A stretch of 64,000 bases of DNA from Chloroflexota bacterium (lineage in GTDB: Bacteria; Chloroflexota; Anaerolineae; Anaerolineales; Villigracilaceae): the NCBI GenBank assembly GCA_016191845.1, contig JACPVF010000013.1, positions 1 through 64,000 on the forward strand. The letters are read 5' to 3'. Made by a program: the position numbers and the translations under genes. The notes under the pieces were generated by a model. The model was not told the DNA's origin. It saw only the letters and a list, made by a program, of their open reading frames with translations, and ran no database searches. This document shows positions 15,672 to 20,623 of this stretch, piece by piece. The stretch's first letter is position 1. Each line of letters starts with the position of its first letter.

Positions 15672-17537
15672 TTAATCAGCCGCCACAGCCTCGTTCAGGA
15701 TCTCCGAGGTCTCCGAGATTTCGGAGGCCTGTCCATCGGCCACGCCGTACTGCACTTCCATCTCGTGACGGAACTGCTGCGTGTACAGGCGGTAGTAATG
15801 TCCGCGCAGTTTGAGCAGCTCGGCGTGCGTGCCCTGCTCGGCGATGTGTCCGTTCTCGATCACCAGGATACGGTTCGCGCGGCGGATGGTGCTCAGGCGG
15901 TGGGCGATGACGAAGGACGTGCGGCCCTTCATGAGGGCCTCCATACCGCGTTGGATCAGGGCTTCCGTCAGCGTGTCGACCGACGAGGTGGCTTCGTCCA
16001 TGATGAACAGCTCGGGGCGGGCCAGCACGGCGCGCGCCAGGCTGATCAGCTGCTTCTGTCCGACCGAGAGCAGGTTGCCGCCTTCGCCCACGTTCTGGTC
16101 GTAGCCCTTTTCGAGGGTGACGATGAAGTCGTGTGCGCCTGCGATCTTGGCCGCCTCGATGATCTCCTCTTCGCTGGCTTCCAGCCGTCCGTAGCGGATG
16201 TTGTCGCGCACGGTGCCCGAGAACAGGTGCGGCGTCTGCAGCACGATGCCGATGCGGCTGTGGATCGAGGCCAGAGTGTAGTCGGTGTAGTCGCGGCCGT
16301 TGATGCGGATCTGGCCCTCGGTGGGCTCGTAGAAGCGGCACAGCAGGTTCACGATGGTGGACTTTCCTCCGCCCGTCGGGCCGACCAGCGCGATCATCTC
16401 GCCTGGCTGCACCTGGAGCGTGAAGTCCGTCAGCACGGGCTTGCGGTCCTCGTAGTAGAAGTTGACGTGCTCGAACTCGATCCTGCCCAGCAGGGTCTGG
16501 GCCTCGACCGCGTCGGGTTTGTCGTGGACGTCGGGCGGGGTGTCCACCAGCTTGAAGATGCGCTCGGCCGAGGCGATGGAGTGCTGCATTTCGGCGTACA
16601 CGCGCGCCAGGTCCTGGATCGGCCACATCATGAAGGTCAGGTACGAGACGAAGGCCTGGATGCCGCCAATGGTCATCAAGCCGGCCTCGATCTGTTTTCC
16701 GCCATAGCCGACGATCAGCCCGAGCGCCACCGCGGCGATGATCTGCACGGTGGGCAGGAACAGCGCCGAGAGCCAGGCCGCGCGATAGGCGGCGTTGTAC
16801 ATGGTGCCCGTCAACTGGCCGAACTCGTGCGTGTTCTCGTCCTCACGGCCCAGCGCCTTGACCACGCGTACGCCCTGGATGTTCTCGTTGTAGGCGCCCG
16901 TGATCTTCGAGTTAGTGCGGCGCGTGATGCGGAACTGCGCCAGGATGCGCTTGCGGAACTGCACGGCGATGAACAGCATGAGCGGGATGATCGCGAATAC
17001 GATCAATGCCAGCCGCCAGTTGATGATGGCCATGAAGGTCACCGAGGTGATGATGTTCATCACCGCCCAGGTCGTGTCCACCACGCCCCAGGTCATCAGG
17101 TCGGCCACGCGGCCCGTGTCCGAGGTGACGCGCGCGATCAGGCGTCCCACCGCGTTCTGGGCGTAGTACGAGAGCGATAGCTCCTGCAGGTGGTTGAACA
17201 GCATCTTGCGCAGGTCGTATTGGATGCGTTCGCCCAGCACGCCCGCCAGGTAGATGAACGTGAACACCATGCCCGATTGCAGGATGATGAAGCCGCCGTA
17301 GAGCGTGGCGAGCTGCATCACACGCGCGGGGTCGCCGCCGTTGATGCCCTGGTCCACGATCTGCTTGTTGATATACGTGAAGTACGCGTCCAGGCCCGAG
17401 GTGCCCGCGATGGTGATCAGGAAGCCGACCACCCATTTCCAGTGCGGCTTGAGCAGTCCCAGGATGCGCTGGAACACGGGCGCGGTCAGGTTCGAGGTAT
17501 GTTCTTCTTCTTCGAGTTCGATAAGTTCTTCAGCCAT
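15672..17537 (-). CDS. ABC exporter half-transporter, second subunit of a heterodimer
   Basis: This 621-residue half-transporter has an N-terminal six-helix exporter domain and a C-terminal ATPase domain with Walker A GPTGGGKST, signature LSVGQKQ and Walker B LFIMDEATSSVD with the catalytic Glu. The altered signature LSVGQ matches the asymmetric site of heterodimeric exporters such as BmrCD, whose partner has a degenerate Walker B; the upstream gene shows exactly that. The pair probably exports drugs or lipids across the inner membrane. A family A repeat separates the two genes, but they are co-oriented and probably share the attenuated transcript. Confidence 0.93.
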   Translation of the reverse strand: MAEELIELEEEEHTSNLTAPVFQRILGLLKPHWKWVVGFLITIAGTSGLDAYFTYINKQIVDQGINGGDPARVMQLATLYGGFIILQSGMVFTFIYLAGVLGERIQYDLRKMLFNHLQELSLSYYAQNAVGRLIARVTSDTGRVADLMTWGVVDTTWAVMNIITSVTFMAIINWRLALIVFAIIPLMLFIAVQFRKRILAQFRITRRTNSKITGAYNENIQGVRVVKALGREDENTHEFGQLTGTMYNAAYRAAWLSALFLPTVQIIAAVALGLIVGYGGKQIEAGLMTIGGIQAFVSYLTFMMWPIQDLARVYAEMQHSIASAERIFKLVDTPPDVHDKPDAVEAQTLLGRIEFEHVNFYYEDRKPVLTDFTLQVQPGEMIALVGPTGGGKSTIVNLLCRFYEPTEGQIRINGRDYTDYTLASIHSRIGIVLQTPHLFSGTVRDNIRYGRLEASEEEIIEAAKIAGAHDFIVTLEKGYDQNVGEGGNLLSVGQKQLISLARAVLARPELFIMDEATSSVDTLTEALIQRGMEALMKGRTSFVIAHRLSTIRRANRILVIENGHIAEQGTHAELLKLRGHYYRLYTQQFRHEMEVQYGVADGQASEISETSEILNEAVAAD

Positions 17538-17556
17538 TTTTTATTCTCCATCATCC

Positions 17557-17655
17557 ATGTCGTTGCGAGGGTGGGGTTCTTCCACCCGAAGCAACCTCCT
17601 CGGAAGGGGGCGGTTGCTTCGTCGCAAAGAGAAAAGACGCTCCTCGCAACGACAT
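17557..17655. repeat. Family A repeat between the two ABC transporter genes
   Basis: ATGTCGTTGCGAGGGTGGGG at one end and CCTCGCAACGACAT at the other form the arms, with an inner GAAGCAACCTCC/GGCGGTTGCTTC palindrome. Confidence 0.88.
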
Positions 17656-17661
17656 GAGATA

Positions 17662-19503
17662 TCAGTTCACGCTTGCGATCTCGTTCTCCAGTTCCTCGTC
17701 GATGCGGGTCTGGATGTCGTAGATGCGGCGGTACATGCCATCCTTCTGGACCAGCAGGTCTTCGTGCGTGCCCATCTGGATGACCTCGCCCTTGTCCAGC
17801 ACCAGGATCAGGTCCGCGATCATCACGGACTGGATGCGGTGGGCGATGATGAACGTGGTGCGGTCCTTCATCAGGCTGTTCAGCGCCTCGCGGATCTCGG
17901 CCTCCGTCTCCAGGTCCACCGAAGAGGTGGAGTCGTCCAGGATCAGGATGCGCGGATTCTTGAGCAGGGTGCGGGCGATCGTCACGCGCTGTTTCTGCCC
18001 GCCCGAGAGGGTCACGCCCTTCTCGCCCACGATGGTGTTGTAGCCGTCGGGGAAGCCGACGATCACGTCGTGCACGGCGGCGGCCTTGGCGGCGCGCTCC
18101 ACTTCCTCCTGCGGCACCTGGCGGCCTACGCCGTAGGTGATGTTCTCGCGGATCGAGCGGCTGAACAGGAAGGGTTCCTGTTCCACGATGCCGATCTGCT
18201 GGCGCAGGGTCGAGCGCGAATAGTCCTTGATGTCCACGCCGTCCAGCAGGATGCGCCCGCCCGTGTACTCGTGGAAGCGCGGCAGCAGGTTGACCAGCGA
18301 GGTCTTGCCCGAGCCCGTCGAGCCGAGCAGGGCCACGGCCTGTCCAGGTCGGACGTGGAAGGAGACGTTCTTCAGCACCTGATGCTCGCCGTCGGAGTAG
18401 ACGAACGAGACGTTCTCGAACTGGATGTCGCCGCGCACGGGACCTGTCGGCTGGTGCACCCCGTCGAAGAGTGGCTCGCGCTGCTGCTTGACGATCTCCA
18501 TGATGCGTCCGTACGAGACCATGCCCGTCGAGGTCTGCACGATCATGCGGCCCAGGTTGCGGATCGGCCAGATCAGCCACACCACCAGTCCCACGTAGGC
18601 CAGGTAGGTGCCGACCGTGATCTCGCCGCGGATGGCCATCAGCGCTGCGAAGACGAATCCGAACAGCATCTGGAAGCCCAGCACGATGTCCGAGAGCGGC
18701 CAGAACATCGAGTGCATGAAGAGCAGGATCTTGCCCTTCAGGTACTTGCCCCAGTTGTCCTTCTCGAACTTGCCCTTCTCGTAGTCCTGGCGCGCGAAGG
18801 CCTTGACCACGCGCACGCCCGTCAGGTTCTCCTGCAGGGTGGTGGAGAGCAGGGCCTCCTGCGCCTGGTAGTCCTCGTAGGCCTTGGTGACCTTCTTGAA
18901 GAACCACAGCGAGACCAGCAGGATGATGGGGATGACCACCACCGACACCAGGCCCAGGGTCACGTTCAACTGCAGGATCGCGACCCAGTTGATCACGAAC
19001 AGCAGGATGATGCGTCCCATGCCGATGGCCTGCTCGCTGAAGAAGCGCCGTAGGGCATCCAGGTCCGAGGTCACGCGCTCGATGATGTCACCCGTGGGGG
19101 TGGTCGAGTGGTACGAGAAGCTCAACCGCTGGATGTGGTCGAAGAGGAAGTCTCGCAGGCGGCGGGTGATGCCCTCGGCGGTGTAGGCCGCCAGGCGTCC
19201 AGAGATGAACGAGAAGCCGCCTTCGAAGGCCGCCAGGGTCACGAAGCCCGCCGCGATCCACAGCAGGGTGATGGTCAGGCTGTCGGCAATGTATTTGCCC
19301 TGGGTCAGCACGTCGTCGGCAAAGTAGCGCAGCAGCAGGTAGGTGAAGGTCTTGGCCAGGGCCGAGACCGCCAGCGCGGCCGTCGCGCCTGCGTAGGACA
19401 GGTGATAATCGGTCATCATCTGCCACAGGCCCACAAGACGGTTCTTGTTCAGGGTGGTGCGGAAATCGAAGGTGAGGGGGGCGGGTTCGGTAAGGGTGGT
19501 CAT
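17662..19503 (-). CDS. ABC exporter half-transporter, degenerate-site subunit
   Basis: This 613-residue exporter half has six membrane helices, then Walker A GSTGSGKTS, signature LSGGQKQRVTIARTLL and Walker B LILDDSTSSVD, where Asp replaces the catalytic Glu. That substitution marks the degenerate site of heterodimeric multidrug exporters. The start at ATG 19503 (MTTLTEPAPLTFDF) follows GAAAGG at good spacing. The longer frame to 19560 would begin inside a terminator hairpin. A leader ORF and terminator lie upstream, so expression is probably controlled by attenuation. Confidence 0.93.
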   Translation of the reverse strand: MTTLTEPAPLTFDFRTTLNKNRLVGLWQMMTDYHLSYAGATAALAVSALAKTFTYLLLRYFADDVLTQGKYIADSLTITLLWIAAGFVTLAAFEGGFSFISGRLAAYTAEGITRRLRDFLFDHIQRLSFSYHSTTPTGDIIERVTSDLDALRRFFSEQAIGMGRIILLFVINWVAILQLNVTLGLVSVVVIPIILLVSLWFFKKVTKAYEDYQAQEALLSTTLQENLTGVRVVKAFARQDYEKGKFEKDNWGKYLKGKILLFMHSMFWPLSDIVLGFQMLFGFVFAALMAIRGEITVGTYLAYVGLVVWLIWPIRNLGRMIVQTSTGMVSYGRIMEIVKQQREPLFDGVHQPTGPVRGDIQFENVSFVYSDGEHQVLKNVSFHVRPGQAVALLGSTGSGKTSLVNLLPRFHEYTGGRILLDGVDIKDYSRSTLRQQIGIVEQEPFLFSRSIRENITYGVGRQVPQEEVERAAKAAAVHDVIVGFPDGYNTIVGEKGVTLSGGQKQRVTIARTLLKNPRILILDDSTSSVDLETEAEIREALNSLMKDRTTFIIAHRIQSVMIADLILVLDKGEVIQMGTHEDLLVQKDGMYRRIYDIQTRIDEELENEIASVN

Positions 19504-19534
19504 GGTGAAGCCTTTCGTGATAAAGCGGAACGAC

Positions 19535-19567
19535 AAAAAAAGCCACGGTGCTGGGTGCACCGTGGCT
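19535..19567 (-). terminator. Attenuator terminator ahead of the ABC exporter genes
   Basis: On the minus strand, AGCCACGGTGC (19567-19557) pairs perfectly with GCACCGTGGCT (19551-19541) over a 5-nt loop and is followed by a run of U. It stands between the leader ORF stop and the exporter start, so full-length transcripts require antitermination. The segment just 5' of it, CGCCTCC (19575-19569), can pair with the leader Shine-Dalgarno GGAGGCG. Confidence 0.88.
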
Positions 19568-19590
19568 TGGAGGCGTAAGGTCGTTAAGAA

Positions 19591-19674
19591 CTAACGCGGG
19601 CGGGCAACAGGCGCACTACGAGAAGGAATGGATCCAGCGGGAACGAACGTGTTGATACGGGCGATGGTGCTCAT
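19591..19674 (-). CDS. 27-aa leader peptide of the ABC exporter operon
   Basis: ATG at 19674 follows AAAGGAGG at 8-nt spacing, the strongest ribosome site in this part of the window. The peptide starts MSTIARINTFVPAG and ends with an Arg/Pro/Ala-rich tail, ARPR, before TAG. It is too short and too close to the terminator to be a conventional gene. The ribosome site AGGCGCACTAC (19685-19675) is exactly complementary to codons 19-22 (19619-19609), so translation state would reshape the RNA. By analogy with bmrB upstream of bmrCD and with erm leaders, a ribosome stalled by an antibiotic is expected to prevent terminator formation. The ORF and pairings are seen; the drug response is inferred. Confidence 0.82.
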   Translation of the reverse strand: MSTIARINTFVPAGSIPSRSAPVARPR

Positions 19675-19713
19675 GTAGTGCGCCTCCTTTCTTAGAATTT
19701 GATTAACGCTCCG

Positions 19714-19743
19714 AGTTTACCTCGTAGCCCGCGGATGTGTCAA
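19714..19743 (-). promoter_or_regulatory. Promoter of the leader peptide/ABC exporter transcript
   Basis: Perfect -35 TTGACA (19743-19738), 18-bp spacer, -10 TAAACT (19719-19714). Transcription would start near 19707, about 32 nt before the leader ATG. Confidence 0.7.
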
Positions 19744-19779
19744 GACTTATACAGCAATTTCCATCCCCCATGAGTGTTA

Positions 19780-19785
19780 TATAAT
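19780..19785 (+). promoter_or_regulatory. TATAAT box 7 nt before the aminotransferase ATG (leaderless)
   Basis: A consensus -10 ends 7 nt before the start codon at 19793, so transcription would begin at or next to the A of ATG. No Shine-Dalgarno is present. Confidence 0.75.
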
Positions 19786-19792
19786 CGTCTTT

Positions 19793-20623
19793 ATGGTGAC
19801 ACTTTGGAAAATCACGGGGCAGGGGAGCGAGGAAGTCCGCCTGCCCGACCTCTCTTCACTGGATGCGGCCACGAACGGGTTGCCCGATGGCCTTTACAGC
19901 ACCTTTCGGACCTTCCGCCAGCGTACGCACGCCCTCGACCTGAAGACCCACCTCGACCGCCTCTACCTGCCCGCCGCCAAAAAGGGTCTCCGCCCCTCGG
20001 CGGATTCCGTCTCCCTGCGCCGCACGATGGCCGACCGCCTGGAGGCCTACTCCGCCGACGAGGCGCGCGTGCGCATCAGCCTGACCCATCACGGGCAGGT
20101 CTACCTGGCGCTCGAGCCGTTGAAACTCCTGCCGCGTTCGGTCTATGAGCAGGGTGTGCGCGTGGTCGAGACGCGCGCTCACCGCGAGAACCCCACGCTC
20201 AAGTCCACGGCCTTCATCGCCGCCAGTCAGGCGGAACGGGCGCAACTGGCCGAGCAGAACGCCTTCGAAGGCCTGATCGTCCATCACGGGCAGATCCTCG
20301 AATGCCTGACCAGTAACTTCTTCTACGTGCACACAGGGAAGCTCGGCACGGCCCCGCGCGGCGTCCTCAACGGGGTGACGCGTCACGAGGTACTGTCCAT
20401 CGCCCGCGCCGAGGGGATCGAGATCCTGTACGAACCGTTGCCCCTCAGCGAGGCGGGGAAGATCGACGAGGCCTTCCTCACCAGCAGTTCACGCGGCATC
20501 GTCCCTATTGTGGACATGGATGGGACGCAAGTCGGTGACGGCAGGGTCGGTGCATTGACCCTGCGCCTGATGCGCCTGTACGAAGCCGACATCGAGAAGC
20601 GCGTCGAACCGATCCGCCCGTAG
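19793..20623 (+). CDS. Class IV PLP-dependent aminotransferase / aminodeoxychorismate-lyase-like
   Basis: This 276-residue protein has the fold-type IV layout. RTFRQRTHALDLKTHLDRLY corresponds to the N-terminal substrate-arm motif, the Lys in NPTLKSTAFIAA is the expected Schiff-base lysine, and LECLTSNFFYVHTGKLGTAP and GVLNGVTRHEV are the cofactor phosphate-binding and late motifs. Members include branched-chain aminotransferases, D-amino-acid aminotransferase and PabC lyase; nothing visible separates these. The message appears leaderless. It is cytoplasmic and is followed after 54 bp by a gene with its own ribosome site. Confidence 0.87.
   Translation: MVTLWKITGQGSEEVRLPDLSSLDAATNGLPDGLYSTFRTFRQRTHALDLKTHLDRLYLPAAKKGLRPSADSVSLRRTMADRLEAYSADEARVRISLTHHGQVYLALEPLKLLPRSVYEQGVRVVETRAHRENPTLKSTAFIAASQAERAQLAEQNAFEGLIVHHGQILECLTSNFFYVHTGKLGTAPRGVLNGVTRHEVLSIARAEGIEILYEPLPLSEAGKIDEAFLTSSSRGIVPIVDMDGTQVGDGRVGALTLRLMRLYEADIEKRVEPIRP

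Follow-up and report, generated by a model that had tools for sequence, protein, structure and literature searches.

A probable ribosome-mediated transcription attenuator of three competing helices ahead of a predicted heterodimeric ABC exporter and other operons in Anaerolineae

Introduction

In attenuators of the trp type, a competition among helices 1:2, 2:3 and 3:4 of the leader RNA is read by the translating ribosome. Leader-peptide attenuators of resistance genes are, to our knowledge, mainly single-gene systems. The vmlR leader of Bacillus subtilis drives an ABC-F resistance gene and is described as a 3-codon upstream ORF inside an anti-antiterminator; ribosomes that an antibiotic stalls close to the start release an antiterminator, which in turn prevents an intrinsic terminator (PMC9226507). 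The bmrB leader of bmrCD in the same species attenuates a heterodimeric multidrug ABC exporter by alternative stem-loops that depend on leader translation, and the coding sequence of its 53-residue ORF holds the terminator (PMC4191407). A third system, the rli80/hflXr attenuator of Listeria monocytogenes, controls one gene with a 14-residue ORF carrying an RLR motif, and drug-stalled ribosomes on this small ORF are described as preventing an intrinsic terminator (PMC6310831). The toiL uORF of E. coli senses several classes of ribosome-targeting antibiotics, with tetracycline stalling reported at its start codon, but it acts on a ribosome-binding site with Rho-dependent termination and not on an intrinsic terminator (PMC12121999).

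Here we describe a leader element of Anaerolineae whose proposed mechanism resembles that of vmlR most and then that of bmrB. It shares with vmlR a short ORF in a putative anti-antiterminator, a proposed start-proximal stall, an intrinsic terminator and a resistance gene. It differs in that its ORF has 21-34 codons, in that the Shine-Dalgarno (SD) sequence itself would be a strand of the anti-antiterminator with the ORF end as partner, and in that one homologous element is found across many operons of another phylum. With bmrB it would share the attenuation of a heterodimeric ABC exporter, alternative stem-loops and a dependence on leader translation; the leader studied here has 27 codons and its terminator follows the stop codon. 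The element also differs from trp-type attenuators, as no regulatory codon run was seen by reading and its target genes are different. No earlier description of an attenuator of such kind in Chloroflexota was found in Rfam or in the titles and abstract openings of the open-licence PMC literature.

Results

Leader and exporter genes in the window

The window is the whole 64,000-nucleotide stretch of DNA that was analysed. On its minus strand, reading from 19743 to 19503, a promoter-like site is followed by a strong SD, then by a 27-codon ORF and an intrinsic terminator, and finally by the beginning of exporter A (Table 1). A preliminary description of the locus had proposed such a promoter, ORF and terminator ahead of two ABC half-transporter genes, and all of them were located. 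Two promoter-like sites, one per strand, were found in a 901-nt region where 0.2 would be expected. The fold of the window leader was 4.8 sd stabler than dinucleotide shuffles and was reached by 0 of 200 shuffles. As had been claimed, the SD region is exactly complementary to codons 19-22 of the leader ORF, in an 11-nt match between segment 1 and segment 2. A divergent plus-strand gene (19793-20620) adjoins the attenuator and resembles D-amino-acid or branched-chain aminotransferases, all below the NCBIfam cut-offs.

Table 1. Features of the leader and the exporter genes, in window coordinates
Feature	Position	Strand	Basis
Promoter-like site: TTGACA 19743-19738, 18 nt, TAAACT 19719-19714	19714..19743	-	10/12 matches
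Shine-Dalgarno (SD) AAAGGAGG of leader ORF	19683..19690	-	sequence
Segment 1 AGGCGCACTAC, anti-antiterminator helix 5' strand, overlapping SD	19675..19685	-	pair counts, duplex tests
Leader ORF MSTIARINTFVPAGSIPSRSAPVARPR, 27 codons	19591..19674	-	sequence
Segment 2 GTAGTGCGCCT, codons 19-22; partner of segment 1 or segment 3	19609..19619	-	pair counts, duplex tests
CGCCTCC, exact complement of SD GGAGGCG (19687-19681); real, not conserved	19569..19575	-	sequence, 75-element duplex comparison
Segment 3 AAGCCACGGTGCACCC, terminator 5' arm + loop; GGTGCAC 19561-19555 pairs with segment 2	19553..19568	-	duplex tests
Intrinsic terminator hairpin (segments 3:4) + U run	19535..19568	-	stem 19568-19540, 12 pairs, U run to 19535
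Exporter A, ABC half-transporter, degenerate Walker B (D replacing glutamate)	17662..19503	-	motifs, homology; ATG at 19503
Exporter B, ABC half-transporter, consensus Walker B glutamate, degenerate signature LSVGQ	15672..17537	-	motifs, homology

The asymmetric ATP sites that had been attributed to the exporter pair are present. Exporter A has an LSGGQ signature and a Walker B motif ending in DD (ILILDD), while exporter B has LSVGQ and a Walker B motif ending in DE (LFIMDE). TM287/288 chains were among the matches of exporter A, and TM288 and BmrD (YheH) among those of exporter B. By motifs and homology the two proteins would thus fit the BmrCD or TM287-288-like heterodimeric ABC exporters, which have one degenerate and one consensus ATP site.

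Conservation at orthologous exporters

Of 61 genomes searched, 48 have an orthologue of exporter A (own genome counted, E up to 1e-150), and 32 of these belong to the same family. One same-family orthologue lies at a contig end and is not examinable (L038 in genome G010). The search upstream of homologous exporters that the preliminary description had suggested found the element before all 31 examinable same-family orthologues, 30 by reading the DNA and one (genome G013) through a match of the covariance model R1. The SD partner is shifted within the ORF in one of these loci (L029), and segment 2 is in another frame in a second (L030). Outside the family but within the order, the element precedes 6 of 16 orthologues (L037, L043, L045, L051, L052 and L054) and was absent from the other 10, both by DNA reading and with the wider covariance model R2 at E up to 0.1. 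In three of those ten (L044, L046 and L049) a short ORF and a terminator of another kind were seen.

Among 79 aligned elements, an SD-like motif was observed in all 79 (by a loose pattern) and a promoter-like site upstream in 70, while the leader ORF ranges from 21 to 34 codons. The leader stop codon lies 16-35 nt before the terminator (median 23), and a ribosome on the stop codon should therefore reach segment 2 but not the terminator. The N-terminal codons of the leader differ strongly between the window genome and a congener although their exporter A proteins are 95% identical. Several elements of the smaller alignment A1 (see below), for example L025 and L031, share a small hairpin (GUUGACC...GGUCAA) that lies just 3' of segment 2 and surrounds the leader stop codon. 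It is not evident in the window.

Three helices that share strands

Segment 1 is the SD region, segment 2 the ORF end, segment 3 the 5' arm and loop of the terminator and segment 4 its 3' arm. Helix 1:2 thus pairs the SD with the ORF end, helix 2:3 pairs the ORF end with the terminator 5' arm and loop, and helix 3:4 is the terminator. In an alignment of 34 elements (A1), standard pairs formed 87.8% of 1:2, 87.1% of 2:3 and 90.8% of 3:4, and when the partner was slid by 1-3 columns the values for 1:2 and 2:3 fell to 25-54%. Nine of the 11 terminator pairs were changed on both sides. The outer terminator pairs vary with compensation, whereas the inner part, TGCAC/CGCAC, keeps its match with segment 2.

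Covariation of the two competing helices was seen in the larger alignment. In A1, 2:3 was not clearly above shuffles: its percentage paired was reached by 56 of 500 shuffles, and its pairs and cells changed on both sides by 126 and 76. For 1:2, 282 of 500 shuffles had at least as many doubly changed pairs as were observed. In A3, which has 79 loci chosen to avoid near-duplicates (a weak match, L090, was left out here and from the 75-element duplex comparison), 17 cells of 2:3 were changed on both sides against a shuffled mean of 6.8, and none of 500 shuffles reached 17; 5 of its pairs were changed on both sides, a number reached by 59 of 500. For 1:2 in A3 the corresponding counts were 31 cells (shuffled mean 13.6, reached by 0 of 500) and 7 pairs (reached by 17 of 500), counts that lean towards 1:2 because A3 was fitted to 1:2 and 3:4 and not to 2:3. 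These permutation and shuffle tests ignore shared ancestry. Co-ordinated replacements of segments 2 and 3 were also found in distant members. As an example, L277 has GGAGUUUGCC as segment 2 and GGCAAACUCC as segment 3, and L275 has GGAGUGUGUC with GACAUGCUCC, its near-identical neighbour L276 showing one 2:3 mismatch. The preliminary description had asked for a conserved peptide with covarying stems; the stems do vary together in the larger alignment and the [S/P]RSAP end of the peptide is kept, but its N-terminal codons are not.

Duplex comparisons

RNAduplex was left free to pick any site in the ORF, and 36 exporter elements were compared with shuffled ORFs. The mean energy was -19.3 kcal/mol for 1:2 against -13.1 with shuffled ORFs, and -18.5 kcal/mol for 2:3 against -14.1. 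Taken singly, elements surpassed 95% of their own shuffles in 31 of 36 cases for 1:2 and in only 17 of 36 for 2:3. The best 1:2 and 2:3 sites overlapped by at least 6 nt in 34 of the 36 (mean 18.2 and maximum 23 in 100 shuffles), and they overlapped in all 39 further elements, of which seven precede the same exporter and 32 precede other genes. When segments were exchanged among all 75 elements, none of 5000 permutations matched the mean of the cognate partners, for 1:2 or for 2:3.

The mutually exclusive pairings put forward in the preliminary description included one between GGAGGCG of the SD and CGCCTCC just before the terminator. Two conserved exclusive pairings do exist, but the predicted antiterminator among them is 2:3. 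The SD:CGCCTCC pairing is exact in the window but is not conserved as a switch, and it was rejected as a conserved antiterminator since the SD against the spacer between stop codon and terminator averages only -8.4 kcal/mol over the 75 elements. The value in the window, -14.1, is the third lowest of the 75 (L092 and L031 are lower).

Folding with a masked ribosome footprint

For this simulation, leader RNAs were truncated ahead of the terminator 3' arm and folded with the bases under an assumed ribosome footprint masked, and 2:3 was counted when the terminator 5' arm paired with the last nine codons by at least 5 expected bases. The results describe folding at equilibrium and not kinetics. A ribosome placed on the start codon let 2:3 form in 51 of 75 elements, where shuffled ORFs gave a mean of 14.4 and a maximum of 19. 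When it was placed on the stop codon instead, 2:3 formed in 0 of 75 (mean 0.6, maximum 2). Without a ribosome the count was 26 of 75 (mean 9.2, maximum 13), so the state of no translation may leak. With a ribosome at codon 8, helix 1:2 was kept in 63 of 75 elements, and stalls away from the start would therefore need a queued ribosome.

Spread of the element

R1 matched 204 of 301 genomes of the order, in 89 of 113 genera (E up to 0.01), and many genomes have more than one copy. Three clear copies lie in the window genome: besides the window locus, there are copies ahead of tandem GNAT genes (C5:33975-34128) and of an rsgA-like gene (C10:224574-224714). A further match, which is weak (E 0.004-0.009), stands before an ABC-F gene. 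In a separate draw of the class, R2 at 1e-4 matched 93 of 298 genomes, 74 of them outside the order. Of 400 genomes drawn from the phylum, 38 had a match: 33 belong to the order, 1 to the rest of the class and 4 to the rest of the phylum. One of these 4 (the R2 match L283, genome G656) has no classified downstream gene and was taken as chance. Two loci of the same phylum outside the class (L280 and L281) have the element before an exporter, with the leader stop at the start of segment 2 and with segments 1 and 2 changed.

A pattern scan of named genomes found at least 118 stretches. Among the 80 matches listed with titles, 78 had titles naming Chloroflexi, Anaerolineae or taxa that belong there. 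The other two were titled Clostridia (L131), which is without a classified downstream gene and was taken as chance, and Chthonomonas (L194), where the next gene is 74% identical to exporter A. For the element set 100 loci were extracted; L090, L131 and L189-L245 were left out and two opposite-strand matches were unused. No Rfam family reached its gathering score in window positions 17000-20500 or in 10 loci. Two sub-threshold Rfam matches were dismissed, with 27.8 and 17.9 bits against gathering scores of 41.2 and 90, the weaker of which overlaps the element end of L119.

Genes behind the element

The genes found behind the element encode ABC and ABC-2 exporters, GNAT acetyltransferases, ABC-F, RsgA, RtcB and RIO kinase. 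Of the 118 pattern stretches followed downstream, 112 have a gene of the exporter A type, the second exporter type, GNAT or ABC-2 within 900 nt (76 of 80 and 36 of 38 in two batches); of the rest, 3 are cut off and 3 are without a classified gene (L131, L214 and L218). A further 100 elements were hand-picked, the order and the class each supplying 40 and the phylum draw 20. In 97 of them one of the listed kinds of gene follows within 750 nt, a count that includes two cases of a HAD hydrolase ahead of a GNAT gene, while one is cut off and two have none. Ten of the 100 loci share an identical element core with a named pattern record, and the two sets thus overlap.

The contexts read were 37 of at least 150 order matches, 20 of 71 phylum-draw matches and 40 of 93 class-draw matches outside the order. 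As the list of query proteins was drawn up after these contexts had been read, the downstream-gene test is not blind; without the 13 elements that supplied query proteins, 84 of 86 have a classified gene. Background was measured on the window alone, where the classifier scored 3 out of 306 positions, all of them at the exporter pair. Among representatives, ABC-F and RsgA were above NCBIfam cut-offs, and RtcB, RsgA, GNAT, ABC and ABC-2 domains and RIO were above Pfam cut-offs. Since downstream genes were not used in the element searches, their agreement counts for the attenuator explanation.

Several of these gene neighbourhoods have features of their own. Genes of RIO-domain kinases lie directly behind the element in seven loci of other Anaerolineae (L294, L295, L296, L315, L321, L322 and L266), identified by PF01163 in six and by tblastn in L295. 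A gene of an RtcB-family RNA ligase lies directly behind it in L117 and L120 and is a later gene in L288. Four GNAT matches in a row were observed in L088, L107, L118, L123 and L124. Furthermore, 20 ABC-F orthologues were found in 61 genomes, and 12 have a leaderless leader ORF (a -10-like box, a few nt and ATG) followed by a terminator, namely C10:257153-258778 of the window genome (L326) and L324, L325, L327-L330, L332, L334, L337, L339 and L340. Ten of the 12 leaderless peptides end in ...RIAP plus a few residues, and the remaining eight orthologues lack such a leader or were not assessable. These ABC-F leaders have no SD and hence no segment 1, so that their logic should differ from the switch between SD and ORF end.

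Discussion

The conserved parts, competing pairings and shared downstream genes point to a ribosome-mediated transcription attenuator with three mutually exclusive helices that is turned ON by a stall in the start region, a reading to which we give a probability of roughly 85%. A covarying intrinsic terminator with a U run lies between a conserved short ORF with an SD, presumably translated, and the first gene, and in the computations the antiterminator is predicted to be mutually exclusive with the terminator. Pair counts and duplex comparisons support helix 1:2 as anti-antiterminator, and the masking simulation predicts that a stalled ribosome would block it. The attenuator that the preliminary description had placed before a heterodimeric exporter has gained strong comparative support from the conservation of the ORF, the SD, the terminator and two exclusive pairings.

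We propose the following co-transcriptional timing and ON/OFF logic. During normal translation the ribosome would run to the stop codon and cover segment 2, so that 3:4 would form and the exporter stay OFF. After release, or where no ribosome is present, 1:2 would sequester segment 2 and the terminator would form, leaving the switch mostly but not cleanly OFF. A ribosome that stalls at the start codon or immediately past it, or that waits there in a queue behind another, stalled ribosome, would cover segment 1. Segment 2 would then be free to pair with segment 3, and RNA polymerase would read into the exporter (ON).

The most likely input is a general inhibition of early translation, as ribosome-targeting antibiotics, the presumed inducing compounds, would cause. 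The input is probably general because homologous elements precede genes for exporters, acetyltransferases, ABC-F, RsgA, RtcB and RIO kinase. The preliminary description had seen in the peptide a possible antibiotic sensor of one exporter; the same element stands before many Anaerolineae operons, and since the N-terminal codons lack conservation, a general sensor is more likely than a peptide that recognises a specific drug. We regard as unlikely, in particular, that the nascent peptide, whose [S/P]RSAP end is conserved, arrests the ribosome only with a particular drug and that arrest there sets the switch. Arrest peptides are commonly drug-specific, and a common reading frame runs through segment 2 in 75 of the 79 aligned elements, giving AP in 69, so that the peptide may have a role. 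Against this, the other four (L030, L102, L103 and L116) keep the RNA segment in another frame, the N-terminal codons diverge between the window genome and its congener, and the downstream genes span many resistance types. An arrest at the conserved end would, moreover, be expected to cover segment 2 and to favour termination.

Slow decoding of a scarce amino acid, as in trp or his attenuators, would use the same three-helix logic that is known from trp leaders, but we consider it very improbable as the setting of this switch. No recurring codon run was seen in the leader peptides (by reading, with no statistic), and transporters, acetyltransferases and ribosome factors, not biosynthesis, lie downstream. 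Least probable of all, hardly to be expected, is an RNA bound by a protein or ligand in the manner of a riboswitch, to which the ORF would be incidental. The RNA segment at the ORF end is indeed highly conserved in sequence, as such a reading would have it, but segment 2 does change, together with its partners, and although the ORF body varies, its start codon, its SD and an open frame that closes behind segment 2 are preserved. The Rfam result for the window region and the 10 loci also counts against it.

The attenuator read by early translation probably lets these environmental bacteria switch the downstream genes on when protein synthesis is blocked, as far as sequence comparison can tell. 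As drug-stalled ribosomes on the small ORF of rli80/hflXr are described as doing (PMC6310831), stalled ribosomes on this leader would prevent an intrinsic terminator. At odds slightly better than even, we suggest that the element forms a cis-encoded translation-stress regulon of Anaerolineae with no protein regulator, placed like T-boxes or riboswitches before exporters, acetyltransferases, ABC-F, RsgA, RtcB and RIO kinase. As parts of the same suggestion, the signal would be an arrest of initiation or early elongation from any cause, and the acetyltransferases and RIO kinases would be unrecognised factors of resistance or ribosome repair. The position of the RIO kinase genes suggests that bacterial RIO kinases are linked to translation stress. 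If this holds, a homologous element shared by many operons of a bacterial class would allow translation stress to be read from the sequences of uncultured bacteria. By association it would further point to candidate resistance and ribosome-repair genes, among them the tandem GNAT enzymes, the RIO kinases and an RtcB-family ligase, and its natural leader variants could serve to test which kinds of stall flip a three-helix switch.
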